Notes under the pieces: model-generated
What the model saw: the letters and a program-made list of their open reading frames with translations, nothing else
The model's database searches: none
Told to the model about the DNA's origin: nothing
In this document: in pieces, positions 2,160 to 21,254 of the stretch
How positions within the stretch are numbered: the stretch's first letter is position 1
Layout: every line of letters starts with the position of its first letter
Position numbers and translations under genes: made by a program
Assembly: GCA_041228345.1 (NCBI GenBank)
Contig: CP166131.1
Coordinates: 248,001 to 312,000 of the forward strand
DNA from: Alphaproteobacteria bacterium LSUCC0396
GTDB taxonomy: Bacteria > Pseudomonadota > Alphaproteobacteria > Puniceispirillales > Puniceispirillaceae
Reading direction: 5' to 3'
Length of the DNA: 64,000 nt

Positions 2160-2573
2160 TTATGTTTTTAGATGCACCGGTTCGCCATGCGGCGTCGCGA
2201 GATAGGCGTCACGCCATTGCAATTCCAACGCGGTCAATATTTCAGGATCAACAATGTCCTTTTCCTGCATCAAGCCAATCAGGGTTTCAAGCCATATCTG
2301 ATAGTAATCATCACCACCATTAAGCCCGCCAGCCTTGGCAGATGACGCCGCAGCAAGATTTTTGCCAAAACGGCTGCCCCAGTCTTGCCAGCAGAAATAG
2401 CCCGCCTCATTCAAATGCACGGCAAGCGCAAAGACTTCGGCGTGCCATGGCGCATCAAAGGGCTGATCAGGCAGCAGCGCCGCAATGCCTGCTGCCCGCG
2501 CCGCGCCATATCCGTTATTGGGCGCGCTTTCGGATTTGCTACTTCGCTCAATGGCGGGCTTTACAGCACTCAT
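2160..2573 (-). CDS. Nitrile hydratase accessory/activator protein
   Basis: Small protein (137 aa from the ATG at 2573) resembling the N-terminal half of nitrile hydratase beta subunits; proteins of this family (P14K/NhlE-like) load cobalt and help oxidise the metal-binding cysteines of the alpha subunit. Visible hallmarks are PFDAPWHAEVFALAV and a WxxxFG segment, the counterparts of the beta-subunit N-terminal helices. The ATG chosen overlaps the beta stop as ATGA, the sign of translational coupling; an alternative upstream start would overlap the beta gene by 34 nt. Third gene of the operon alpha-beta-accessory. The role is inferred from family and position. Confidence 0.82.
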   Translation of the reverse strand: MSAVKPAIERSSKSESAPNNGYGAARAAGIAALLPDQPFDAPWHAEVFALAVHLNEAGYFCWQDWGSRFGKNLAAASSAKAGGLNGGDDYYQIWLETLIGLMQEKDIVDPEILTALELQWRDAYLATPHGEPVHLKT

Positions 2574-3247
2574 TCGCTCGGCACCAAATAGCTTTGCCAG
2601 CAATCAACCACAACCTTGTCATTACCATTGCCATCAGCCCAAAGATCTGCGCTTGAAAACTCCACCGAATAGAGTGGCTCGGGGCATTCCCCGAGAAAAT
2701 GGGCGTTACTGTTGGGTAATACATGATAGCCATGGGAGAACAATATCGTGCCAATTTTATCAGCGGCATAATGCGGCAACCGCGTATGGCCTGGCATCTG
2801 CATCTTGGTATCATCAGGTAATAGGGTACGAACCTTTTGACCGCGCCGAAATAGCGGTTCGGCCATGGCGGGGCGTGACGCCTTGGCACCAGTCGCGAGC
2901 ATAAGCGGAACCGCAGCGGCGCGAAGCACGCCATCACGCAGATTTTGCTGGGGGCCATCATAGCCACCAGCAGCGATTTCATCACGCGTCACAAATCCTT
3001 TGGCGACAAAGAGATTGGTCAATGCAGCCAGCCATTTTTCATAGTAACTAAAAGAGTGATAATCATCCTTGGGCAGGGTTTCACGCCAAAACCGCGATGC
3101 GTCGATATTCCACGCGCCCATCGCGCCACCAGCCACAGTCAGCCCCAATACACGCTTGTGCCACGGCGTTTCAAAAACCGGATCATTCGGGTGGTCAGGC
3201 TTGATCGGCCCAGATTGATCGCCGCCCATGTCATGATGTGGTTTCAT
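2570..3247 (-). CDS. nthB: Nitrile hydratase beta subunit
   Basis: Second subunit of nitrile hydratase, which hydrates nitriles to amides in the cytoplasm. 225 aa, normal for the family. The N-terminus has the family's MGGxxxxGP-like opening followed by PNDPVFETPWHKRVLGL, and the C-terminal half has the SH3-like barrel region ending in a VVDCWQSYL strand. The ATG at 3247 is preferred over the GTG one codon upstream because a purine-rich AAAGGGGG lies just ahead. It starts 12 nt after the alpha gene and overlaps the accessory gene by ATGA, so all three are one operon. Confidence 0.93.
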   Translation of the reverse strand: MKPHHDMGGDQSGPIKPDHPNDPVFETPWHKRVLGLTVAGGAMGAWNIDASRFWRETLPKDDYHSFSYYEKWLAALTNLFVAKGFVTRDEIAAGGYDGPQQNLRDGVLRAAAVPLMLATGAKASRPAMAEPLFRRGQKVRTLLPDDTKMQMPGHTRLPHYAADKIGTILFSHGYHVLPNSNAHFLGECPEPLYSVEFSSADLWADGNGNDKVVVDCWQSYLVPSE

Positions 3248-3259
3248 CACCGCCCCCTT

Positions 3260-3967
3260 TCAATCATGATCTGTTGATGCTGTATCAGGAGCAGCCATAT
3301 CGGGCATAGCCATAGCAGGAGGAGATGGCAAGCCGGTCCCAATCATGCAATTGCGATGAACCCAGCCTGCAAGCGCCACTTCATCGAGACCAACACTCTC
3401 GGCAGGCTGCATTGGCAGAACCAGATACCTGATTTCAGCCGTTGAATCCCACACCCGAATGGTCTGCTCAGGCGGGATCATCAGGCCAAATTCAGCCAAT
3501 ACCGCGCGCGGTTCACGCACAGCACGACTGCGGTAAGCGTCAGATTTATACCATGCAGGCGGCACCCCAAGAACGGGCCACGGATAACAGCTACATAAGG
3601 TGCAAACGACCAGATTATGACAGTCAGGCGTATTTTCAACGACAACGATATGCTCACCCTGCCGGCCGCCAAAGCCAAGGTCAGACAGAATGCCATCGGT
3701 GTTATTTACCAGCTGGGCCTTAAACACTGGATCAACCCAAGCACGCGCCACCAGCCCCGCCCCGATTCGTGGACCAATCTGATGCTCGTAGATATCAATG
3801 ATTGCATCAACCGCGGCTGGATCAATCAGGCCCTTACGGGTGAGAATAGTCTCCAGCGCCTTGACCCGCAATGCAGGTTCAGACGGTAATAGCGCGTGGG
3901 CATGAGCCTCATCATGGTGATCGTGCGGCATGCTAAATCCTAGCATTGGATCGTCTGTCTCGTCCAT
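3260..3967 (-). CDS. nthA: Nitrile hydratase alpha subunit, cobalt type
   Basis: Catalytic subunit of nitrile hydratase, 235 aa. The metal-binding claw CTLCSC is at residues 122-127, followed by Tyr; Thr in the second position of the claw is characteristic of cobalt enzymes, whereas iron enzymes usually have Ser. Two of its cysteines are expected to be oxidised to sulfinate and sulfenate. The N-terminus is His-rich (MPHDHHDEAHAHA), which could be a metal-binding extension. First gene of the operon; no amidase to process the amide product is encoded in the window. The last ~25 residues are Met/Ala/Pro-rich and probably disordered. Confidence 0.95.
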   Translation of the reverse strand: MDETDDPMLGFSMPHDHHDEAHAHALLPSEPALRVKALETILTRKGLIDPAAVDAIIDIYEHQIGPRIGAGLVARAWVDPVFKAQLVNNTDGILSDLGFGGRQGEHIVVVENTPDCHNLVVCTLCSCYPWPVLGVPPAWYKSDAYRSRAVREPRAVLAEFGLMIPPEQTIRVWDSTAEIRYLVLPMQPAESVGLDEVALAGWVHRNCMIGTGLPSPPAMAMPDMAAPDTASTDHD

Positions 3968-4122: not shown

Positions 4123-4920
4123 ATGCAAGCGAGACTGGATGGGCGTAATGCCATCATCACCGGCGGCAGTGCCGGTATTGGCAAAGCCATTGCCAAGAAT
4201 TTCCTGAAATCAGGTGCAAATGTTGCGATTGTTGCACGCCGCACGGACGTGCTGGATGCGGCCAAAGCCGAGATCGAGGCCGAAGGTCAAAAGGCTGGAG
4301 CGACCGGCCGTGTCATTGCCCTATCTGCCGATATCCGGCATGACAAAAATTGCCAAAATGTTGTTGCCGAAATTGTGTCAGCCTTTGGCCATGTTGATGT
4401 TCTGGTGAACAATGCCGGCACATCACAGCGCGGTGATTTTCTCGAGGTCAGTGACGCGTTATGGCAAGATGACCTTGACCTAAAACTATTCTCGGCGATC
4501 CGGCTGTCTCGTCTTCTGATCCCTGGTATGCGCGAACGTAAATGGGGGCGCATTATCAATGTGTTAAATCTTGGGGCAAAAGCACCAAATGCAGGCGGCG
4601 CGCCAACCGCTGTCAGCCGTGCCGCCGGTATGGCATTGACCAAAATTCTGGCAAACGAAAATGCCAGCCATAATATTTTGGTCAATGGATTACTTGTCGG
4701 GCGAATTCGCAGTGATCAATGGGAAAAACGGCACGCCGCTGATCCGCGTGGCCTCACGCTAGAGGAATGGTACGCCGATGCCGCTGCGGGCCTAAATATC
4801 AGGCGGTTTGGTACGGCTGAAGAATTTGCCAATATGGCAACCTTCTTGGCGTCGGATGCCGGGTCATACATAAACGGCACGGCAATCAATGTGGATGGCG
4901 GCAGCTGTCCTGTCGTTTAA
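4123..4920 (+). CDS. SDR-fold protein with degenerate active site
   Basis: Classical short-chain dehydrogenase/reductase fold, 265 aa. The dinucleotide-binding motif TGGSAGIG (residues 13-20) and the NNAG motif (96-99) are intact, so NAD(P) binding is likely. The catalytic positions are not: by comparison with the family consensus the Asn-Ser-Tyr-Lys set aligns with Lys121, Asn149, Thr162 and Arg166. The C-terminal INVDGG motif is normal. It may bind a cofactor and ligand without ordinary SDR chemistry, or use different residues; I do not assign a substrate. A GGTGAG Shine-Dalgarno precedes the ATG. It is divergent from the nitrile hydratase operon (155 nt between starts) and could share its regulation. 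Confidence 0.85.
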   Translation: MQARLDGRNAIITGGSAGIGKAIAKNFLKSGANVAIVARRTDVLDAAKAEIEAEGQKAGATGRVIALSADIRHDKNCQNVVAEIVSAFGHVDVLVNNAGTSQRGDFLEVSDALWQDDLDLKLFSAIRLSRLLIPGMRERKWGRIINVLNLGAKAPNAGGAPTAVSRAAGMALTKILANENASHNILVNGLLVGRIRSDQWEKRHAADPRGLTLEEWYADAAAGLNIRRFGTAEEFANMATFLASDAGSYINGTAINVDGGSCPVV

Positions 4921-4949: not shown

Positions 4950-4990
4950 AGGGGCCAGCGTCCCGTCAGGCGGATGATGCGCTGGCCCTT
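4950..4990. terminator. Convergent-gene hairpin
   Basis: A perfect 9-bp stem, GGGCCAGCG (4952-4960) with CGCTGGCCC (4980-4988), loop of 19 nt, followed on the plus strand by TTT. It sits at the meeting 3' ends of the SDR gene and the DMT gene and overlaps the last codons of the latter. Probably a weak bidirectional terminator. Confidence 0.4.
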
Positions 4991-5853
4991 TGCCGTATCC
5001 GTTCCCGGTGAAAGGCGTAAACCCCCATGCCGATTACGATCATTGTGCCAAGGATTGTTGCCGCATCGGGCAAATCGCCAAATAGCAAGAACCCAAACAG
5101 AATTGCCCAGATCATGCCAGTATAACGAAATGGTGCGACAAAGCTAATTTCGCCATTGCGCATCGCCATAACCGCAAACAGATAGCCGCAGGTTATCGCA
5201 ATCGCCGCCACCACGACGATGCCGATCATCGTACCTGAAACAACCGTCCACCCCGTTGTCGCGGTTGCAACCCCGCCATAAATAAAAATTGGAATTGCCG
5301 AAATAAATGCCACGAACAAAGACGGAACCGACCGGTCAAGGCGGCGCGTAATCGCGTCACGCACAGTGACACAAGCAACAGCAACAATCGCCAGAACCGC
5401 ATATTCATTAAAACCATCGTCACTGGGCCGGATAATGATCAAGACGCCAATAAATCCGGCAAGGATGGCACCCCAACGCCGCCAGCCCACCTGCTCGCCA
5501 AAAAAGATTGCCGCAAACATGGTTACCGTCAATGGTAACGCCTGTAAAATAGCGGTGATGTTTGCCAGCGGCATATTTGATAATGCGGTTAGAAACGCCA
5601 TCGTTGCAGCAAGCTCGGCAAATGCGCGGGTTAAAATCACCCGCCAGTTACGCCAATCAATCCGCACAAACAGGCTTTTGCGCAGATAAGCAATCAGCGC
5701 CAACAGCGGCACTGACACCAGACCACGCATGAAAATACCTTGCTCGACCGAAATAGTCTGAAACAAAAATTTCATCAACGCGTCATTGCTGATGAACGAC
5801 AGCATACTCACCGCCATCAAGATGGCGCCAAAAACATTGTCTGTTAATTTCAT
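4966..5853 (-). CDS. DMT/EamA family transporter (copy 1)
   Basis: Inner-membrane drug/metabolite transporter superfamily protein, 295 aa, with two EamA repeats of about five helices each. The N-terminal part contains FISNDALMKFLF and the RG-V-VPL segment typical of the RhaT/RarD-like branch; the C-terminal repeat ends in IGMGVYAFHRER. Substrate unknown; members export amino acids, nucleotides or other metabolites. It is a clear paralogue of the DMT gene ending at 10610, with matching blocks such as GWRRW, IRP and SFVAPFRY. It is transcribed divergently from the pirin gene. Confidence 0.88.
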   Translation of the reverse strand: MKLTDNVFGAILMAVSMLSFISNDALMKFLFQTISVEQGIFMRGLVSVPLLALIAYLRKSLFVRIDWRNWRVILTRAFAELAATMAFLTALSNMPLANITAILQALPLTVTMFAAIFFGEQVGWRRWGAILAGFIGVLIIIRPSDDGFNEYAVLAIVAVACVTVRDAITRRLDRSVPSLFVAFISAIPIFIYGGVATATTGWTVVSGTMIGIVVVAAIAITCGYLFAVMAMRNGEISFVAPFRYTGMIWAILFGFLLFGDLPDAATILGTMIVIGMGVYAFHRERIRQRASASSA

Positions 5854-10609: not shown

Positions 10610-11476
10610 TTATGCGCGCCACATTTGGTCGCGGTAAAAGGAATAAAGACCAGTAGCAACGACAATGATTGCGCCGATCCATGTCCAGCTATCCGGCCAT
10701 TCACCAAACAGCAACGCACCAAGCGCGATTGCCCATACCAGACCAACATATCGAAATGGCGCGACAAAACTCAGATCGCCAAATCGCATTGTCATCACCT
10801 GAAAAAAATAACCTGCAGCGACGCTAAGGCCGCAGAATGACAGAACAAGCCAATTATAAGGGCTGATTATTTGCCACGGTATCGTCACTGTAACGGCACC
10901 ACTAAAAAGGCAAACAGCAGCGGCTGTAAACAATGCTGCAAATAGTGCTGGTACGCGGTTTGGCAGATGGCGTGTTACCGCATCATTCAGCGTGGCAAAA
11001 CCCACAGCACCAACAGCAAGCGTTGAATAGACGTTAAAATCATCCGTCCCGGGACGAATAACCATCAACACGCCGCAAAACCCGATAATGACCGCACTCC
11101 AACGCCGCCATCCGATCATTTCACCAAGAAACAGCGTTGCGACGACAGTAAGCGATAAGGGCACCACCTGCATGATCGCCGAGACATTGGCAATCGGCAT
11201 ATGCGCAAGCGCCGTCAAAAAACAGCTTGCCATGCCGATTTGCGCCGCCGCTCGAACCGATAACAAGCCGAAATCCGCGAAACCCAGACGAACAAAAAGA
11301 CAGTCGCGGTACCATGCCAAAGCCGCAATAATCGGCACCGCCACAGTGCCGCGCAAAAACATCGCCTGAAATACCGACATGTCAACGAACAGGAATTTCA
11401 TGAAAATGTCGTTAGTGACAAAGGCAACACGTGCAACTGTCATTAAAACGGCGCCTTTGGCATTAGCAGATATCAT
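10610..11476 (-). CDS. DMT/EamA family transporter (copy 2)
   Basis: Ten-helix EamA transporter, 288 aa, paralogous along its whole length to the DMT gene starting at 5853: both have FxxND-xxMKFLF near residue 25, GWRRW near 125, IRP near 140 and SFVAPFRY in the second repeat. It directly follows speD-speE on the same strand. The ATG lies immediately after a terminator-like hairpin whose 3' arm supplies GGGG as the only visible Shine-Dalgarno. A role in polyamine or related metabolite export is possible from context but not shown by the sequence. Confidence 0.87.
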   Translation of the reverse strand: MISANAKGAVLMTVARVAFVTNDIFMKFLFVDMSVFQAMFLRGTVAVPIIAALAWYRDCLFVRLGFADFGLLSVRAAAQIGMASCFLTALAHMPIANVSAIMQVVPLSLTVVATLFLGEMIGWRRWSAVIIGFCGVLMVIRPGTDDFNVYSTLAVGAVGFATLNDAVTRHLPNRVPALFAALFTAAAVCLFSGAVTVTIPWQIISPYNWLVLSFCGLSVAAGYFFQVMTMRFGDLSFVAPFRYVGLVWAIALGALLFGEWPDSWTWIGAIIVVATGLYSFYRDQMWRA

Positions 11477-13224: not shown

Positions 13225-13674
13225 ATGGACAATTTAAAAGCGCTTGGACAAGCCTCAAAATTACCAAACAGCCCGGAAGAGGCCGAATTGGAACGCGTGC
13301 CTAATCCGCACCCTGATTGTAATTTTGTTGCGCGTTTTACCCAGCCGGAATTCACCTCGCTCTGCCCGGTGACAGCTCAGCCTGATTTTGCGCATTTGGT
13401 GATTGATTACATCCCCGATCAATGGATGGTCGAGTCAAAGTCGCTAAAGCTATATCTTGGCAGCTTTCGCAACCATCAGGCCTTTCACGAGGCCTGCACA
13501 GTCGATATTGCCAAGGAACTCATCGCGCTGTTATCACCGCGGTGGCTGCGGATTGGCGGATATTGGTACCCGCGTGGCGGCATTCCAATTGATGTGTTCT
13601 GGCAACATGGCACAATCCCCGAAGGCACATGGGTGCCGGATCAGGGCGTTGCCGGTTACCGTGGGCGCGGCTAG
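13225..13674 (+). CDS. queF: NADPH-dependent 7-cyano-7-deazaguanine (preQ0) reductase
   Basis: Reduces the nitrile of preQ0 to the amine of preQ1 in queuosine tRNA modification. 149 aa, the short (unimodular) type. The covalent-thioimide Cys47 and Asp54 lie in [10 protein letters not shown], and the QueF motif [15 protein letters not shown] binds NADPH. A GAGGA Shine-Dalgarno precedes the ATG. Its TAG stop overlaps the TAG stop of the convergent ThiX gene within CTAG. Confidence 0.95.
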
Positions 13675-14411
13675 CTGTTTTGCCGCTGGACGACATAACG
13701 GCATAACCGGTCAACCGACCCATGCAGCAATAGCGTAAGCACTGCCAACACAATCAATGCGGCAAACATCAGATCGATTTTCGCCCGGCCATTTGCCAGC
13801 AACATTAAATAACCCAGCCCTTGCGATGCCCCGACCCATTCGCCAATGATCGCGCCAATCGGGGCATAGACGGCCGCCAGACGCAGGCCAGATGCCAATG
13901 CCGGTATTGCGGCTGGAATCCGGATATGTCGCATGATATGCCACGATCGCGCCTGCATTACCTTGGCAAGATCAAGCATGCCGCGCGGCGTCTGCATCAA
14001 CCCGTCAAAAAACGCAGATGTTACTGGAAAATAAATAATCAGCAGCGCCATGATGATTTTTGGCCATAACCCATAGCCGAGCCACAATGTTAGAACCGGT
14101 GCCAGCGCAAATACCGGCAATGCCTGACTAAGCACCATCATCGGACGAACCACCAGCCGCGCCAGTGGCGACATCGCAAGACTGATGGCCGTTACCACCC
14201 CCAAAAGCGTCCCGAGCAATAGCCCGATCATCACCTCGGCCATAGTCACGCTGGCATGATGCCCAATTAATTCCAGATTGCTGAAAAGTGCCGTCGCCAC
14301 GCGCGCTGGTGATGGCAAAATAAATGCCGGCAGGCCTGTTGCCAAAACCAGAAAATGCCACAGCAATAGGATCAATGCTGTTACGCCAGCGATGCGAAGC
14401 GCCCGGATCAT
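13671..14411 (-). CDS. thiX: ABC transporter permease, thiamin pyrimidine precursor (ThiX)
   Basis: Inner-membrane permease of the SsuC/TauC-like family, 246 aa, about six helices with the cytoplasmic EAA-type loop around [17 protein letters not shown]. With ThiY and ThiZ it would import N-formyl-4-amino-5-aminomethyl-2-methylpyrimidine or a related pyrimidine. The assignment rests on position: it is the last gene of the riboswitch-controlled thiamin operon, overlapping ThiZ by ATGA. Confidence 0.88.
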
Positions 14412-15187
14412 AGCATCTCACGCAGCAGCCGCAAAAGCCGCCCCTGACAAGCCAGAACATCAGGCGCGTCATAATCACGAATTACCCTAGATGATGGTGG
14501 CTCAATAGATTGCAACCCGTTCACATTCATCACAAATATGACATCGCCAAGACGTGCCGCCTCGCCCGGATCATGGGTAATCAAACAAACAGTCTTGCCA
14601 GCAAAAAGCCGTGCCGCCAGTTCCTGCATTTCGGCTCTGATCTTGGCGTCAAGCGCCGAAAACGGTTCATCAAGAAGGACAATTGGCCGCTCCTCCATCA
14701 AGGTGCGCGCCAATGCAACCCGTTGCCGCTGGCCGCCAGATAAGGCATTGGGCTTTTTATGACGATGCGGGGTCAAGCCAACCTGCTCGATCAGCATCTC
14801 AGCCTTTTCTGACTGAATTTCATCGCCACGCAGCCTGCTGCCAATGACGATATTATCATGCACATCCAGCCACGGCATCAGGTTATCAGTTTGCGCCATA
14901 AGACTGATCCGGCCAGCAATCATCTGATGATCATCCGCCGAAATCTGCCCATCATGGTCGATATGATCCCTTAGACCAGCAAGCAACCGCAATATCGTTG
15001 TCTTGCCAACACCGGACGGCCCCAGCAGACAGGTCCATTTACCGGCGGCAATCGGCAGGTCTAGCTTATCAAAAATTTGCGTTCCGGCGATTTTGGCGCT
15101 GCCGGTAAATTGCAATGCCGGACTGGGGATGTCTGGCGGTGTTCCGGCTTTGCGACGCGGCGCCATTTTGACGTTTTTGCCGGTCAC
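14408..15187 (-). CDS. thiZ: ABC transporter ATPase (ThiZ)
   Basis: ATP-binding subunit, 259 aa. Walker A GPSGVGKTT, signature LSGGQRQRVALARTL, Walker B IVLLDEPFSALD and the switch His in CLITHDPGEA are all present. It energises the ThiXYZ pyrimidine importer. The start is probably the GTG at 15187, which overlaps the tenA stop as GTGA; an ATG seven codons later is an alternative. Confidence 0.9.
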   Translation of the reverse strand: MTGKNVKMAPRRKAGTPPDIPSPALQFTGSAKIAGTQIFDKLDLPIAAGKWTCLLGPSGVGKTTILRLLAGLRDHIDHDGQISADDHQMIAGRISLMAQTDNLMPWLDVHDNIVIGSRLRGDEIQSEKAEMLIEQVGLTPHRHKKPNALSGGQRQRVALARTLMEERPIVLLDEPFSALDAKIRAEMQELAARLFAGKTVCLITHDPGEAARLGDVIFVMNVNGLQSIEPPSSRVIRDYDAPDVLACQGRLLRLLREML

Positions 15188-15858
15188 CCATCAAGTCCCA
15201 TTTGCCAAAACCCAGCCTCAAGCCGTGTTGCGGTAACAAACCGTTTACACAAAGCCGGCCATCGCGGACTGGCGGCTGGCTGGTCCCCCAGCCGGCACAA
15301 AACCGCCGCATCAATCAATGCACCCACATCATGGCAAACCTGCTGATAATCGCTGCCGCCATAGGTCTCGATCCAATCGCGATAAGGCGTTTTTTTATCC
15401 GCTGCCAGCAACCGTGCGCCAATCTCGCCATAGCCCAGAACACAAGGGGCCAAGGCCGCCATTAGATCCAGAAAATCGCCTGAATGTCCGGCATCCATGA
15501 CATAGCGCGTATAGGCAATATTGGCGGTTGCCTCCTCGGCGGCGAATAAGGTCGCCTCATCAATGCCCGCCTCGGCACAAATACGGATATGCAAACTGAT
15601 CTCGTCATTGACCAACGCATTTACCGTCGCCGCACAGGTGCGCATCTCTGCGACCTCATCAGCCTTGGTTACGGCCAATGCCCATGCGCGTGAGAAATGG
15701 ATCAGGAACAGGTAATCTTGCACCAGATAATGCAAAAAGGCGGATTCAGGCAGGCTGCCATCGCCTAATTGCGTTACAAAATCATGGCAGACATAATCTT
15801 GCCACGCGGTACCACTCGCCGCTCGCCATGCGCCAAAACTTGCTCCGTAATCTGTCAT
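15184..15858 (-). CDS. tenA: TenA family aminopyrimidine aminohydrolase (thiaminase II)
   Basis: Hydrolyses 4-amino-5-aminomethyl-2-methylpyrimidine to the HMP pyrimidine, salvaging degraded thiamin. 224 aa, all-helical. Likely catalytic residues are Asp48 (VQDYLFL), Cys139 (APCVLGYGEIG) and a C-terminal Glu in LEAGFW. Located between the ThiY binding protein and the ThiZ ATPase, with stop/start overlaps on both sides, as expected for a pyrimidine uptake-and-processing unit. Confidence 0.92.
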   Translation of the reverse strand: MTDYGASFGAWRAASGTAWQDYVCHDFVTQLGDGSLPESAFLHYLVQDYLFLIHFSRAWALAVTKADEVAEMRTCAATVNALVNDEISLHIRICAEAGIDEATLFAAEEATANIAYTRYVMDAGHSGDFLDLMAALAPCVLGYGEIGARLLAADKKTPYRDWIETYGGSDYQQVCHDVGALIDAAVLCRLGDQPAASPRWPALCKRFVTATRLEAGFWQMGLDG

Positions 15859-16793
15859 TCTGCCCCCAGATCAACAGCAATTTTGGATACGGGACGGATA
15901 TCCTTTAACAGGCCCGCTTCCTTTAAAAACGCCTCAAACCGGCTGTAGCGCCCCTCATCCAACGCCTCGGGACGCAACGCAAAACGCGGCAATGTATCAT
16001 TCCACGCCCGCTTGTTCAGCTCGTCATCCAGTTCCTTGGCTGTCCCTTTGAAAATCTCCCAGCTTTCCTGAGGGTGATTGACGATATACTGGGTTGCAAG
16101 CTCGGTTGCCTGTAAAAAGCGGCGCACCACGTCTTTGTTCATACGGTCTGGATTGGCGACATAAATCAACTCGTCATAGGCTGGTAGCCCCTCTTCTTCG
16201 AGATAGAAACAGCGACCGGGGACGCCTTCAATATCCATTTGATTCAATTCAAAATTCCGAAAGGCTCCGATAACCGCATCGACCTGTTTTGACATCAGGG
16301 ACGGTGACAGCGACCAATTGACATTCACCAGTTCAATATCAGACATAGCCAAGCCATTGCGCGCCAAAATCGTGGTTAATAGCGCCTCTTCAACACCGGC
16401 AACCGAAAAGCCAACTTTCTTGCCTTTCAAATCAGCCACTGTTTTGATGTTGCCATCTTTTAGCACCAGCAAACAGTTTAACGGCGTCGCGACTAGGGTT
16501 CCAACACGGATCAAGGGCATGCCCTCGGCAATTTGAAGATGCAATTGCGGCTGGTATGACACCGCCAGATCAGCCTTTCCGGCAGCAACAAGCTTTGGCG
16601 GATCAGCTGGATCAGCTGGCGCGATAACCTCAACCTCAAGGCCAGCATCGGCGAAGTAGCCCTTTTCCTGAGCGATGATAATCGGCCCATGATCAGGATT
16701 GATAAACCAGTCCAGCAACAGCGTGACCTGATCTTTAGCCTGCACTGGAGATGAACATAATAGAGCAAATATAACAATGAGATAACGATACAT
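15855..16793 (-). CDS. thiY: Periplasmic pyrimidine-binding protein (ThiY, NMT1/THI5-like)
   Basis: Substrate-binding protein of the NMT1/THI5-like family, about 312 aa, with a Sec signal peptide (MYRYLIVIFALLCSSPVQA, then KD). The mature protein opens with VTLLLDWFINPDHGPIIIAQEKGYF, typical of formylaminopyrimidine-binding proteins. I chose the ATG at 16793 because AAGAGG stands at the right distance and it is the start of the signal peptide; a frame start 12 codons upstream would lie inside thiF. Confidence 0.92.
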   Translation of the reverse strand: MYRYLIVIFALLCSSPVQAKDQVTLLLDWFINPDHGPIIIAQEKGYFADAGLEVEVIAPADPADPPKLVAAGKADLAVSYQPQLHLQIAEGMPLIRVGTLVATPLNCLLVLKDGNIKTVADLKGKKVGFSVAGVEEALLTTILARNGLAMSDIELVNVNWSLSPSLMSKQVDAVIGAFRNFELNQMDIEGVPGRCFYLEEEGLPAYDELIYVANPDRMNKDVVRRFLQATELATQYIVNHPQESWEIFKGTAKELDDELNKRAWNDTLPRFALRPEALDEGRYSRFEAFLKEAGLLKDIRPVSKIAVDLGAE

Positions 16794-16794
16794 T

Positions 16795-17781
16795 TTAAAC
16801 CTCTTTTTCCGTAAAATTTGGATCACCAACGGCGATTAATGAAATTACGCCCGGCCAAAAGCCAGACAATTTTTCCGCCGCCACCCAGGCCCGTTGTCCA
16901 GACCGGCAACAAAGCACAACGCGTGCGATGCCAGTGAGCGGTAAATCTGTGTTTATCTGATCAAGTGCAAGGCGCGTGGCACCGGGCGTTACCAGCCCCG
17001 CCTCATCCGGCGTCCTAAGATCAATCACGAAATCATGCGGCTGAATTTGAGATGGGCTGATGAAGGGCAACCCAGATTTAGGTTCTTCGGCGTGATCAAA
17101 CCGAAACCCACCAAACCGGTTTCCAACCGCGTCATATGTAACCAACTGGCCCAGCGGCGATGGCTGCGCTCTGGTAATCGCCGCGATCGTCATTTGTGCC
17201 TGCAACGAACCGATAACACCGACGACCGGCCCTAGAACGCCATCTTCAGCACAACTGCCAAAACGCTGCGGCAAATCAGGAAAAACCGCGCGAAGACTTG
17301 GCGCCGTTTCGCAAAAACCGCCAACATAGCCGGCCATGCCAACCACCGAGGCGTGAATAAACGGCAGCCGCTTGACCAAACAATAATCCGAAATGCAATA
17401 GCTCACGGCAAAGCTGTCAGCACAATCAAGTACCAGATCAACCTCTGCTGCATAGGCACTGATCGTATCTGGCGTTACCTGAGCGGTGAGCGGCGTAATC
17501 TCGCAATCAGGATTTAACCGGGCCATATGGCTGGCCGCTGCCGACGCCTTTGCCATACCAAGGTCACTTGAGCGAAAAATCGTTTGGCGGTGCATATTTG
17601 TTACCGACACAATATCAGGATCGACCAGCCGGATATGACCAACCCCGGCTCCGGCCAGATACTGCAATACCGGACTTGCTAGCCCGCCAGCACCGACAAT
17701 CAAAAGACGCGCCGCCGCAAGTTTGACCTGACCATCACTGCCAAATTCAGCAACACCGATTTGCCGGTCATACCTGCTCAT
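16795..17781 (-). CDS. thiF: ThiF/MoeB-like adenylyltransferase fused to a rhodanese domain
   Basis: Activates the C-terminal Gly of ThiS by adenylation. 328 aa: ThiF/MoeB/E1-like domain to about residue 215 with the ATP loop GAGGLASP (30-37), Asp/Arg residues of RLVDPDIVSVTNMHRQ, and the candidate thioester Cys177 in SCAEDGVLGPV. A rhodanese domain covers about 243-325 with active-site Cys292 in CRSGQR and may hand over sulfur. The usual zinc-binding CxxC is replaced by Ser-Leu-Arg-Ala (162-165) and no second CxxC is present, so the structural zinc site appears lost. It overlaps thiE by ATGA. Confidence 0.9.
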   Translation of the reverse strand: MSRYDRQIGVAEFGSDGQVKLAAARLLIVGAGGLASPVLQYLAGAGVGHIRLVDPDIVSVTNMHRQTIFRSSDLGMAKASAAASHMARLNPDCEITPLTAQVTPDTISAYAAEVDLVLDCADSFAVSYCISDYCLVKRLPFIHASVVGMAGYVGGFCETAPSLRAVFPDLPQRFGSCAEDGVLGPVVGVIGSLQAQMTIAAITRAQPSPLGQLVTYDAVGNRFGGFRFDHAEEPKSGLPFISPSQIQPHDFVIDLRTPDEAGLVTPGATRLALDQINTDLPLTGIARVVLCCRSGQRAWVAAEKLSGFWPGVISLIAVGDPNFTEKEV

Positions 17782-18386
17782 CTGGTTACCTCTATCCAGC
17801 CTTTCAGGCGGGTTTCCGGAGCTTCGTTCAAGGTAATGTCGGTCACAACCGAAACAATATCCGCACCGGCTGCATAGACACCTTGTGCCCGGTCAATGTT
17901 CATTCCGCCAATGCCAACCAACGGCAGATCACCGATCCGGTCTTTCCATTGCCTTACACGGCCAAGCCCCTGTTCAACCCATTTCATTTTCTTCAGGATG
18001 GTTGGATAGACCGGTCCCAGCGCAACATAATCAGGCTGTTCAGCAAGCGCACGCTCCAGTTCTTCCTCATCATGCGTACTGATACCTATTTTAAGGCCGG
18101 CACGCCTAATCGCCGCCATATCCGCATCGCCAAGATCTTCCTGACCGAGATGGATCCACGAACAGCCAAGATCAATGGCAATTTCCCAGTAATCATTCAC
18201 CACCATTGTGGCACCAGCGGCATCACATAATTGCTGGGCACGCTGCAAGCAAGCCCGTACCTCGGTGGCCGGTAAATCCTTTATCCGCATCTGCACCAGC
18301 TTTACCCCAAGCGGCAACATTCGTTGCAGCCAGTCAGGATGGTCAAAAATAGGGTAAAACCGGTCAAGGCCATGATCCAAACTCAT
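17778..18386 (-). CDS. thiE: Thiamin-phosphate synthase
   Basis: Joins HMP pyrophosphate and thiazole phosphate to give thiamin phosphate. 202 aa TIM barrel. Pyrophosphate/substrate motifs seen: [37 protein letters not shown] and GIGGMN. Start ATG overlaps the thiG stop (ATGA). Slightly compact but all core strands are present. Confidence 0.93.
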
Positions 18387-19156
18387 TGAAGAAACGCCTT
18401 TCCAATTAAGGGGGTTGATGGCGCAGCCATATCGCGCGGTTCCATCGGATCAGCAGTTTTTGCCAGCTGACCAGCCTCGATGGCCTTGGCAAAGGCACAA
18501 GCCATTGCCACCGGATCACCAGCCTTGGCAACGGCGGTATTCAGCAACACCGCATCAAACCCCATCTCCATCGCCTGCGCCGCCTGAGATGGCAGACCGA
18601 GACCTGCATCAATCACCATCGGCACGTCCGGATATTGCGCGCGCAGGCTGCGCAGTCCATAGGGATTGATCAGCCCCAATCCGGTACCGATTGGCGCGCC
18701 CCACGGCATCAGAACTTCACACCCCGCATCCAGCAAACGCTCGGCAAGCACCAAATCTTCGGTGGTATAGGGAAACACCTTAAAACCGTCGCGGCATAGG
18801 ATGGTTGCGGCCTCGACCAGACCGAATGGATCGGGTTGCAGGCTGTCGCTATGCCCGATGACCTCTAGCTTTATCCAGTCAGTTTCAAATAATTCACGCG
18901 CCATTTGCGCGGTTGTGACCGCTTCGCTGGCCGAGTGACAGCCGGCGGTATTGGGCAGAACCTGCACCCCCAATTCGCGAATAAGGCGCCAGAACCCCTC
19001 ACCTGCCCGCGCACCGGCTGCCTCGCGGCGAACCGATACCGTAGCGACTGACGCCGCAGATTGACGAAACGCCGCATCAAGGATGGCTGGTGATGGATAA
19101 TTTGCGGTGCCAAGCATAAAGGCGGTTGGCAATTCCACGCCATAAAAACTGCTCAT
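18383..19156 (-). CDS. thiG: Thiazole synthase
   Basis: Forms the thiazole ring from deoxyxylulose 5-phosphate, dehydroglycine and ThiS-thiocarboxylate. About 257 aa from the ATG at 19156, which is preceded by a perfect AAGGAGG; the longer reading frame from 19240 lies within thiS and is not credible. The Schiff-base Lys is in [10 protein letters not shown], followed by the phosphate-binding [11 protein letters not shown] and the [12 protein letters not shown] segments. Start is one base after the thiS stop. Confidence 0.95.
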
Positions 19157-19157
19157 A

Positions 19158-19355
19158 TCATCCTCCTTGTCGCGGCGCGACAATTTCCACCGCATCACCG
19201 GCCTCAATCTGGCATGAGGCGCGTTGGCTAACCGGAACAAAATTTCCGTTTACCGCTGTCGCCACGCGCGAATCCCCATAGCCATTTTCCTGTAAAATCG
19301 CCTCAAGGTTGCGCCCAGCTACCTCTGTTGCAACACCGTTAATTGAAATTTTCAT
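19158..19355 (-). CDS. thiS: Thiamin sulfur carrier protein
   Basis: Ubiquitin-like sulfur carrier, 65 aa, ending in Gly-Gly, the residue that ThiF adenylates and that then carries the thiocarboxylate sulfur. Beta-grasp pattern with the typical VNGNFVP and [13 protein letters not shown]. The gene begins 17 nt inside the 3' end of thiO, so the two are coupled. Confidence 0.95.
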
Positions 19356-20361
19356 CCATTACCTCTGGGGTTTGACCCGAAAACAGATAATCGGCCGCCA
19401 TTCGTGCCATTGCTGGTGCCAGCAAAAAACCATGTCGAAACAATCCGTTCACATAAAGCCGGTCACCGCGCCGTCTGATACGCGGTAAATTATCTGGAAA
19501 CGCGGGGCGTGCATCAACGCCGATCTCCAAAATTTCAGCCTCGCCAAAGGCCGGATGCAACGCATAAGCGGCACTCAATAGCTCAAGCACCGAGCGCACA
19601 GTTGCCCCATTTCGGTTACCGGACTCGATTTGTGTGGCACCAAGCATGAATACACCATTACCGCGCGGCACCAGATAGATGGGGATTCGCGGATGCAGCA
19701 ATCGAACCGGCCGCGATAGCTGGATATCGGCTGACCGGATCATCAGCATCTCACCCTTAACCCCGCGCAAATCGGTCAAAGCATCCGCCGCCGACAATCC
19801 GCGGCAGTCGATCTTGCTAATCGGTGACGGCGCTCCGGCCACATTATCATTATCCGGAAAATCCAGCCCATCCGCCGTTTCAATCGTGATATCGCGACTT
19901 TCCAGCTCGCCAACAAGACAGGCCAATGCATCACGCGGCGATAAATGCGCCTCGGTCGAGAAAAACAGCCCGCGCCGCGCACGCCCGGCCAAATCTGGCT
20001 CTAATCCGGCCACCCCATCTGAATCAACCCATTCATAATGCGATGTCCGGCGGGCAAACCGGTCAAGCTCACCGCCATCACGACCAAGCGCTAGCACCAG
20101 TGAGCCGTTCCGTTTGACATCAACATTATGCCGCTGCCACCAATCCGCAGCCTCCTGACCAAGCCGTACCACAGGCTCTTCAGCTGCCTCGCTCTCACAA
20201 AATGGCGCCAGCATCCCGCCAGCCCACCATGAGCAGCTATGTTCTGCCGGACGGCCATAGCGGTCAAACAACCGAAACGCCATGCCGCGTTCAGCCAGTT
20301 CAGCAGCGAGACAAAGCCCGGCAACGCCGCCACCAACGATCGTGATTTGCGGTTTTGCCAA
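19339..20361 (-). CDS. thiO: Glycine oxidase
   Basis: FAD enzyme oxidising glycine to iminoglycine for the thiazole ring; its presence instead of ThiH indicates the aerobic route. 340 aa of the DAO family: GGGVAGLCLAAELAERG dinucleotide fold at the N-terminus, LGATQIESG and a C-terminal NGLFRHGFLLAPAMA. The start appears to be a TTG preceded by GGAG at good distance, four codons after the thiD stop region. Confidence 0.93.
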   Translation of the reverse strand: MAKPQITIVGGGVAGLCLAAELAERGMAFRLFDRYGRPAEHSCSWWAGGMLAPFCESEAAEEPVVRLGQEAADWWQRHNVDVKRNGSLVLALGRDGGELDRFARRTSHYEWVDSDGVAGLEPDLAGRARRGLFFSTEAHLSPRDALACLVGELESRDITIETADGLDFPDNDNVAGAPSPISKIDCRGLSAADALTDLRGVKGEMLMIRSADIQLSRPVRLLHPRIPIYLVPRGNGVFMLGATQIESGNRNGATVRSVLELLSAAYALHPAFGEAEILEIGVDARPAFPDNLPRIRRRGDRLYVNGLFRHGFLLAPAMARMAADYLFSGQTPEVMDENFN

Positions 20362-20364
20362 TGG

Positions 20365-21177
20365 CTATCTCCAGATTTCGTAAAAATGGTGAACTGGGCC
20401 ATGCCCCTGACCGATGTCAAGATCGTCAGCAGCTTTGATCGCGCCATGCAACCAGCGATGTGCCGCACCAACCGCCGCATCCAGCGGCAGCGGTTTGGCC
20501 AGTCCGGCAGCGATTGCCGATGATAGCGAGCAGCCGGTGCCATGCGTGTTATCGGTGACAATCCGCGGCGCCTCAAAGATAGCGATTGTGTTGCTGGTTA
20601 TCAGATAATCGTGACAAACCGCACCGTCGGCATGCCCGCCCTTCATCAACACCGCTGCTGGCCCTAGTGCCAACAACGCCTTGCCCTGCTCTTGTGGGCT
20701 CATATCATGCTGCCCCTCTAACAGGCGCGCCGCTTCAGGAATATTTGGCGTCAGCAGGCTGGCACGAGGCAAAAGCATTTCGGTCAAACAAGATACCGCA
20801 TCATCCTGTAACAAGGCGTCACCCGATTTTGCCACCATGACCGGATCAAGCACAATCGGCCCATGATAATGCGCCAATGCACGCGCCACCGCCTCAATCA
20901 CCGCTGGCGTTGCCAACATCCCGATTTTGATTGCATCAATGCGGATATCAGACAGAACAGCATCAATTTGTGCGCCAATCATCGCGGGAGATACCGCCTC
21001 AACATCGCTGACTAATCGCGTGTTTTGCGCCGTGATGGCGGTGATAACACTCGCGCCATAGACACCATGCGCGGAAAAACTTTTTAAATCAGCCTGAATA
21101 CCAGCCCCGCCACCGCTGTCAGAACCGGCAATTGTTAACGCCGTTGCAACATGGCCTTGCGATTTTGTTTTGCCCAT
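20365..21177 (-). CDS. thiD: HMP/HMP-phosphate kinase
   Basis: Phosphorylates hydroxymethylpyrimidine twice to the pyrophosphate used by ThiE. 270 aa ribokinase fold with ALTIAGSDSGGGAGIQAD at the N-terminus and the anion-hole motif DNTHGTGCSLSSA. ATG at 21177 is preferred to a TTG seven codons upstream. First gene of the operon, directly behind the TPP riboswitch, and the only route seen here for the pyrimidine half, since thiC is absent. Confidence 0.94.
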   Translation of the reverse strand: MGKTKSQGHVATALTIAGSDSGGGAGIQADLKSFSAHGVYGASVITAITAQNTRLVSDVEAVSPAMIGAQIDAVLSDIRIDAIKIGMLATPAVIEAVARALAHYHGPIVLDPVMVAKSGDALLQDDAVSCLTEMLLPRASLLTPNIPEAARLLEGQHDMSPQEQGKALLALGPAAVLMKGGHADGAVCHDYLITSNTIAIFEAPRIVTDNTHGTGCSLSSAIAAGLAKPLPLDAAVGAAHRWLHGAIKAADDLDIGQGHGPVHHFYEIWR

Positions 21178-21254
21178 CAAAAATCCCACAAACAACAAAG
21201 TGACGTATGGATCGACGAGACATTTTGATCTGGATTAGTTTCCGATCTGGAAAG

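Follow-up and report, generated by a model that had tools for sequence, protein, structure and literature searches.

A tyrosine-less short-chain dehydrogenase/reductase family with a replaced catalytic tetrad and its candidate role as a conjugate reductase

Short-chain dehydrogenases/reductases (SDRs) form a very large superfamily whose members are usually read as Tyr-Lys oxidoreductases. What, then, does an SDR-fold protein do when the Tyr, the Lys and the two other catalytic residues have all been replaced? The question is raised by a 265 aa protein encoded at 4123-4920 on the forward strand of the 64,000-nucleotide stretch of the Alphaproteobacteria bacterium LSUCC0396 genome analyzed here (the window), the host genome being 2.59 Mb in one contig.

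Fold, cofactor site and replaced tetrad

The reading frame has no internal stop, and its product matches Pfam adh_short_C2 at 1.4e-44. By sequence and model the protein has the classical SDR fold, with a predicted Rossmann fold (AlphaFold2 model, mean pLDDT 93.9, pTM 0.92) and the TGxxxGxG and NNAG motifs. The original prediction had described both cofactor motifs as intact, and they are: TGGSAGIG, the dinucleotide-binding motif, occupies residues 13-20 (4159-4182, forward strand) and NNAG residues 96-99 (4408-4419, forward strand), with T13, G14, S16, G18 and G20 invariant in the alignment of family members. NADP(H)-binding SDRs typically carry a basic residue where beta2 ends and/or in the glycine motif. 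The window SDR has such a residue in R39 at the end of beta2 (4237-4239, forward strand), which is invariant in 55/55 aligned members, and residue 17, an alanine in the window SDR, is lysine in 28/55 and arginine in 3/55 of them. By R39 the protein reads as an NADP(H)-binding classical SDR, and it would be expected to bind NADPH.

The Asn-Ser-Tyr-Lys tetrad of classical SDR enzymes is absent. Tetrad positions were set by aligning the protein to two solved structures, 3ai1 (sorbose reductase) and 2hq1, as well as to 15 SDR-like paralogues encoded in the host genome, and we consider this alignment sound because 12 of the 15 paralogues read N-S-Y-K and one H-S-Y-K, with two atypical (Tyr and Lys are retained in 13/15). 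Tyr-less paralogues of the same genome lie outside the window at 611184-611864 (K-G-L-G; L118) and 1081773-1082492 (D-G-V-K; L107). In the window SDR, the catalytic Asn position is taken by K121 (4483-4485), the Ser position by N149 (4567-4569), the Tyr position by T162 (4606-4608) and the Lys position by R166 (4618-4620), all on the forward strand; the replacement of all four catalytic positions had been placed at 4480-4625, and all four codons indeed lie inside that range. Four residues past the Ser position there is a further lysine, K153 (4579-4581, forward strand), mostly within a KxP loop.

To describe the conservation of these residues, 92 homologues were extracted. Ten rows (L081-L089 and L092) were removed as duplicates of the window or of a different locus, so that 82 distinct loci remained. 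K153 and R166 are present in 82/82 of these loci, N149 in 79/82 (Ser in the other 3) and T162 in 78/82 (Ser in the other 4); K121 is likewise present in 82/82, a count biased toward K121 because one of the six peptide scan seeds contained it. Searching 114 Alphaproteobacteria genomes without seeds returned 16 matches at E <= 1.5e-54, namely the window SDR, L094 (K-N-T-R) and 14 others (L121-L133 and L149), and K121, K153, T162 and R166 are found in 14/14 of the latter. Position 149 in these 14 matches is N in five, I in five, S in two and A in two, which indicates that variation is tolerated at the Ser position and that the core consists of K-x-T-R plus K153.

Conservation also half answers, at the level of sequence, whether a Tyr and a Lys might sit elsewhere in the active site. 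No second conserved Tyr was found, the sole Tyr column at 85% or more being Y249 near the C terminus (53/55 aligned members), and a relocated catalytic Tyr was rejected on this basis; invariant lysines, on the other hand, do exist in K121 and K153.

The gene is under purifying selection. The dN/dS ratio (Nei-Gojobori) is 0.10 between the window SDR and its closest orthologue, 0.06-0.07 against four orthologues with dS of 1.3-1.4, and 0.07-0.16 among other close orthologue pairs; two window pairs have saturated dS and yield no ratio, and one pair with dS of 3.1 gives 0.04. Decay into a pseudogene, to which the change of all four catalytic residues might point, is therefore virtually excluded by the identical replacements, each present in 78 to 82 of the 82 loci, by dN/dS of 0.06-0.16 between close orthologues where dS is measurable, and by the confident predicted fold, as the original prediction had also judged.

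Distribution and gene neighborhood

At E <= 1e-60, the SDR gene was found in 12/15 genomes of the genus (the window's included) and in 0/46 genomes of other genera; of the three genus genomes in which it was not found, two are 70% or less complete. The homologue of the nearest named relative (L072) is 93% identical, by which the host is judged to be a SAR116 bacterium of the Puniceispirillum type; beyond the genus, Rhodospirillales-type MAGs come closest, at up to 75% identity. The gene is thus patchy, and it was probably acquired or repeatedly lost. A family profile at E <= 1e-75 matched 5/299 genomes of the phylum, these being the window's and four others (L094-L097) that all read K-N-T-R, and PRK07062 proper was found in 8/299.

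The window SDR gene stands alone, with a nitrile hydratase divergent on one side and an EamA transporter gene (4966-5853, reverse strand, per Pfam) convergent on its 3' side. It had been called divergent from nitrile hydratase, which is right in the sense of divergent transcription: the nitrile hydratase alpha subunit gene (3260-3967, reverse strand; Pfam NHase_alpha 1.5e-79) lies 155 bp upstream. Also on the reverse strand, per Pfam, are the beta subunit gene (2570-3250) and a gene for an NHase_beta_N-like protein (2160-2603), which we take to be a probable nitrile hydratase accessory protein; the CTLCSC motif of the alpha subunit is presumably of the cobalt type. A promoter scan of the divergent region gave 2 weak consensus matches versus 0.6 expected. 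Elsewhere in the window, a second EamA-type transporter gene (10610-11476, reverse strand) lies about 5 kb from the first, the two having similar translations that fall in one BLAST cluster, and a run of genes at 13671-21198 (reverse strand) resembles thiamine synthesis and precursor uptake, its members being, as we read their translations, presumably TenA-, ThiE-, ThiG-, ThiO- and ThiD-like together with an ABC transporter.

Within the genus, 10 distinct loci with upstream DNA were compared (L001 and L024 had no usable upstream DNA). Nitrile hydratase alpha and beta flank the SDR at 8 of them (L002-L006, L045, L072 and L081), directly upstream in 7 of these 8 by our own gene calls, and are absent from the flanks of L090 and L091, both of which are short. 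Nitrile hydratase was not found beside the SDR in the other loci among the 148 compared, a figure that includes repeats and short stretches. Outside the genus, the neighbors, as cluster representatives, were TauD with DUF188 (4 loci), an HpcH/HpaI aldolase (4), DUF4139 (4), a TPP enzyme with RidA and aldehyde dehydrogenase (3), TldD (3), a molybdenum hydroxylase (2), HpaB (1) and a class II tRNA synthetase (1). By a crude gene caller that detected the SDR in 81/83 loci given, a same-strand gene lies within 100 bp upstream in 28/76 loci and downstream in 15/80. The original prediction had proposed to find homologues with the same replacements and to see what their neighbors share; the homologues were found, but among the cluster representatives the neighbors are mixed, and often but not always catabolic. 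Since the neighbors change between loci, the context does not name the substrate of the SDR.

Placement among tyrosine-less SDRs

In profile searches against solved structures, AerF (6jh7, 1.8e-63) came out on top, ahead of sorbose reductase (5.4e-61) and Q9HYA2 (3lf1, 4e-58); BacG/YwfH (3u49) was matched at 7e-46. Among the best 25 NCBIfam models listed for the window SDR, none reaches its cut-off; the best, PRK07062.1 (NF005468), scores 190 bits, below the curated cut-off of 266, and is matched by 55/55 aligned family members at E <= 1e-30. A K-S-T-R tetrad is present in 9/9 NF005468 members examined and in 3lf1, and the window SDR agrees with it at K, T and R and has Asn in place of Ser. 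The best 50 structure matches listed have Z of 35.2-37.6 over the whole model and are mostly titled dehydrogenases or reductases, with 3ai3 (sorbose reductase) at the top (Z 37.6, rmsd 1.8, 260 aligned) and Q9HYA2 and AerF at Z 35.5 and 35.4. For the predicted model, structure comparison has no discriminating power between likeness to a ketoreductase and likeness to AerF or Q9HYA2.

In a 70-row tree, whose bootstrap values are not fully settled, the window family joins the PRK07062 group with support of 99/94, and Q9HYA2 groups with PRK07062. When the tetrad and K153 columns were masked, the window family, the PRK07062-type sequences and Q9HYA2 formed one clade of 42 rows (98/88), which is present in 98% of 200 bootstrap trees. 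Throughout this K-x-T-R clade, K121, T/S162 and R166 are constant and position 149 varies (N, S, A, I). AerF and BacG are separate from the window family in both trees, forming a K-G-x-N group (100/95 unmasked; 81/86 masked, as K-x-x-N) that the unmasked tree joins weakly (88/58) to a K-less x-S-S-R group. Among canonical relatives, L-sorbose reductase and L143 lie nearest in the unmasked tree (branch 98/96). Apart from the distant paralogue L107, the Tyr-less rows of that tree fall in a 54-row group (branch 95/82; L118 was left out of the tree), and the masked tree requires two changes for them, a single clade being neither rejected nor demonstrated (AU p 0.557, L107 omitted). The same holds for one origin of K121 (AU p 0.496), so the lysine common to AerF/BacG and the window family may be convergent.

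The 38 next-nearest matches in the 114 Alphaproteobacteria genomes (E 4e-42 to 1e-34) keep Tyr and Lys in 12 cases and lack the Tyr in 26 (K-G-x-N in 9, K-S-T-R in 4, x-S-S-R in 10, N-gap-A-K in 3), which places the window family within a broad Tyr-less radiation. The K-G-x-N loci, which are AerF/BacG-like, are L135, L136, L138, L141, L151, L154, L156, L157 and L159, and the x-S-S-R loci, which are like the solved 2z1n, are L140, L142, L146, L148, L152, L153, L164, L168, L169 and L172. Family names within this Tyr-less radiation can mislead.

Candidate reactions and known relatives

We tentatively prefer to read the window SDR as a functional NADPH-dependent conjugate (ene) reductase of the Tyr-less K-x-T-R branch with a Lys/Lys/Arg pocket. 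With the Tyr-Lys proton relay gone, K121 in the old Asn place, R166 in the old Lys place and K153 in the beta5-alphaF loop would form a cationic pocket, in which a small unsaturated acid, aldehyde or ketone would be held by its carboxylate or its carbonyl oxygen and an enolate would be stabilized. Hydride would pass from NADPH to the beta carbon, a conjugate or 'ene' reduction, and the alpha carbon would then be protonated from water or via T162. We infer both this reaction and what the individual residues do in it. Because the gene stands alone opposite a nitrile hydratase, one might hazard that the substrate is a nitrile- or amide-linked unsaturated acid.

The invariance of K121, K153 and R166, the fixed T/S162, the purifying selection and the masked clade with Q9HYA2 are all consistent with such an enzyme, and so are AerF and BacG/YwfH, which share with the window SDR a Lys at the position of K121 and the K153-x-P loop and lack both the Y and the K of YxxxK. 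AerF is, by the title of its paper, the alkenal double-bond reductase of aeruginosin synthesis, and 6jhb is, by its PDB title, AerF with NADPH and 4-hydroxyphenylpyruvic acid; BacG converts epoxy-3E-H2HPP into epoxy-4S-H4HPP, according to a review (PMC9147277). In Mentha SDRs, exchanging Tyr and Glu at the catalytic residue toggles the activity between ketoreduction and ene reduction, as PMC4988501 states. Together, the K-type AerF double-bond reductase, the BacG reductase and the Mentha switch favor conjugate reduction, and membership in a branch whose neighbors reduce carbon-carbon double bonds makes a working, if unorthodox, NADPH reductase probable; C=C reduction by the window family itself would follow by analogy. 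The analogy is strained by the separate grouping of AerF and BacG, which have Asn where the window family has Arg, and by a predicted fold at least as near to ketoreductases as to AerF or Q9HYA2. No reaction was found for any member of the window family or PRK07062, nor a conserved gene neighbor that points to a pathway.

The sorbose reductase likeness, in the structure matches as in the tree, is what an ordinary carbonyl reductase or alcohol dehydrogenase would lead one to expect, one in which the acid/base role of the Tyr would fall to K121 or to a water that K121 and R166 hold; aldehyde dehydrogenase, 2-hydroxyacid dehydrogenase and HpcH/HpaI aldolase genes also adjoin some homologues. We nevertheless consider this unlikely, as the whole clade has lost its acid/base Tyr and such loss is rare, PMC4988501 counting, among more than 500 SDRs, only four further cases of a replaced Tyr. 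Against this rarity, Tyr-less SDRs are common among the window family's own relatives.

Invariant cofactor residues beside a vanished tetrad could also mark a non-catalytic NADP(H)-binding protein, which might act as a redox sensor, as a regulator or, within a mixed SDR complex, as its silent subunit. One subunit of BbsCD is silent. BbsCD is titled a heterotetrameric SDR (7pcs), E. coli BdcA is by title an NADPH-binding SDR important for biofilm dispersal (PMC4171110), and another SDR adjoins some homologues of the window gene (L070 and L058). However, the active-site positions are charged and as fixed as the cofactor site, where one would expect drift in a silent subunit; the neighbor clusters scanned contain no conserved regulator or SDR partner, and the window gene stands alone. 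On balance we doubt that the protein is non-catalytic.

Less probable still is a redox-neutral lyase, isomerase or dehydratase, in which NADP(H) would be fixed or structural and K121, K153 and R166 would serve proton transfer or a Schiff base. Two lysines and one arginine are invariant at or near the active site, and Tyr-less SDR-fold proteins are diverse, but no characterized relative with such chemistry was found.

Returning to the preferred conjugate reductase, the original prediction had allowed for an enzyme with new chemistry, and a mechanism other than Tyr-Lys is indeed the best reading, but the replacements are not unprecedented, given K-S-T-R in Q9HYA2 and the Tyr-less K-type AerF and BacG. 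What is new in the window family is that the Ser is also lost and K153 is fixed, atypical SDRs of the Q9HYA2 type having already been noticed. An open-licence literature search found no description of the window family, and, the search having covered open-licence literature only, a claim that it is not in print would be weak. It is conceivable, though rather doubtful, that the K-x-T-R clade is a distinct enzyme class within the SDR superfamily, in which the Tyr-Lys relay gave way to a Lys-Lys-Arg cation site that acts on a carboxylated substrate, either by conjugate reduction or in a redox-neutral reaction, the window family, without the catalytic Ser, being the most altered. If conjugate reduction is correct, the window family would supply flavin-free ene reductases and allow active-site rebuilding on a constant fold to be tested.

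The Q9HYA2 paper reportedly lists Lys-Ser-Thr-Arg, and the BacG paper is said to name Lys113, Tyr117, Ser155 and Asn158 as catalytic. The closest parallel to the window SDR, at about 32-36% identity, is with PRK07062/NF005468 and P. aeruginosa Q9HYA2 (3lf1 and 3lf2, NADPH complex, with a PDB title containing 'Atypical Cataly...'), which have the same Asn to Lys, Tyr to Thr and Lys to Arg replacements but keep the catalytic Ser and lack K153 (L/S/T/Y/R there). AerF (6jh7, 6jha and 6jhb) and the bacilysin reductase BacG/YwfH (3u49) share the Asn to Lys replacement, the missing Tyr and the K153-x-P loop; AerF differs in reading K-G-S-N, in grouping apart with BacG and in being encoded in a biosynthetic cluster, and BacG in reading K-G-N-N within that separate group. 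L-sorbose reductase (3ai1 and 3ai3) is the top structural match and the nearest solved canonical SDR in the tree, but it has S-Y-K, with H at the Asn place. Mentha isopiperitenone reductase, finally, resembles the proposed enzyme in its replaced catalytic Tyr and in ene reduction, but it is a plant enzyme that has Glu for Tyr and keeps Asn, Ser and Lys.
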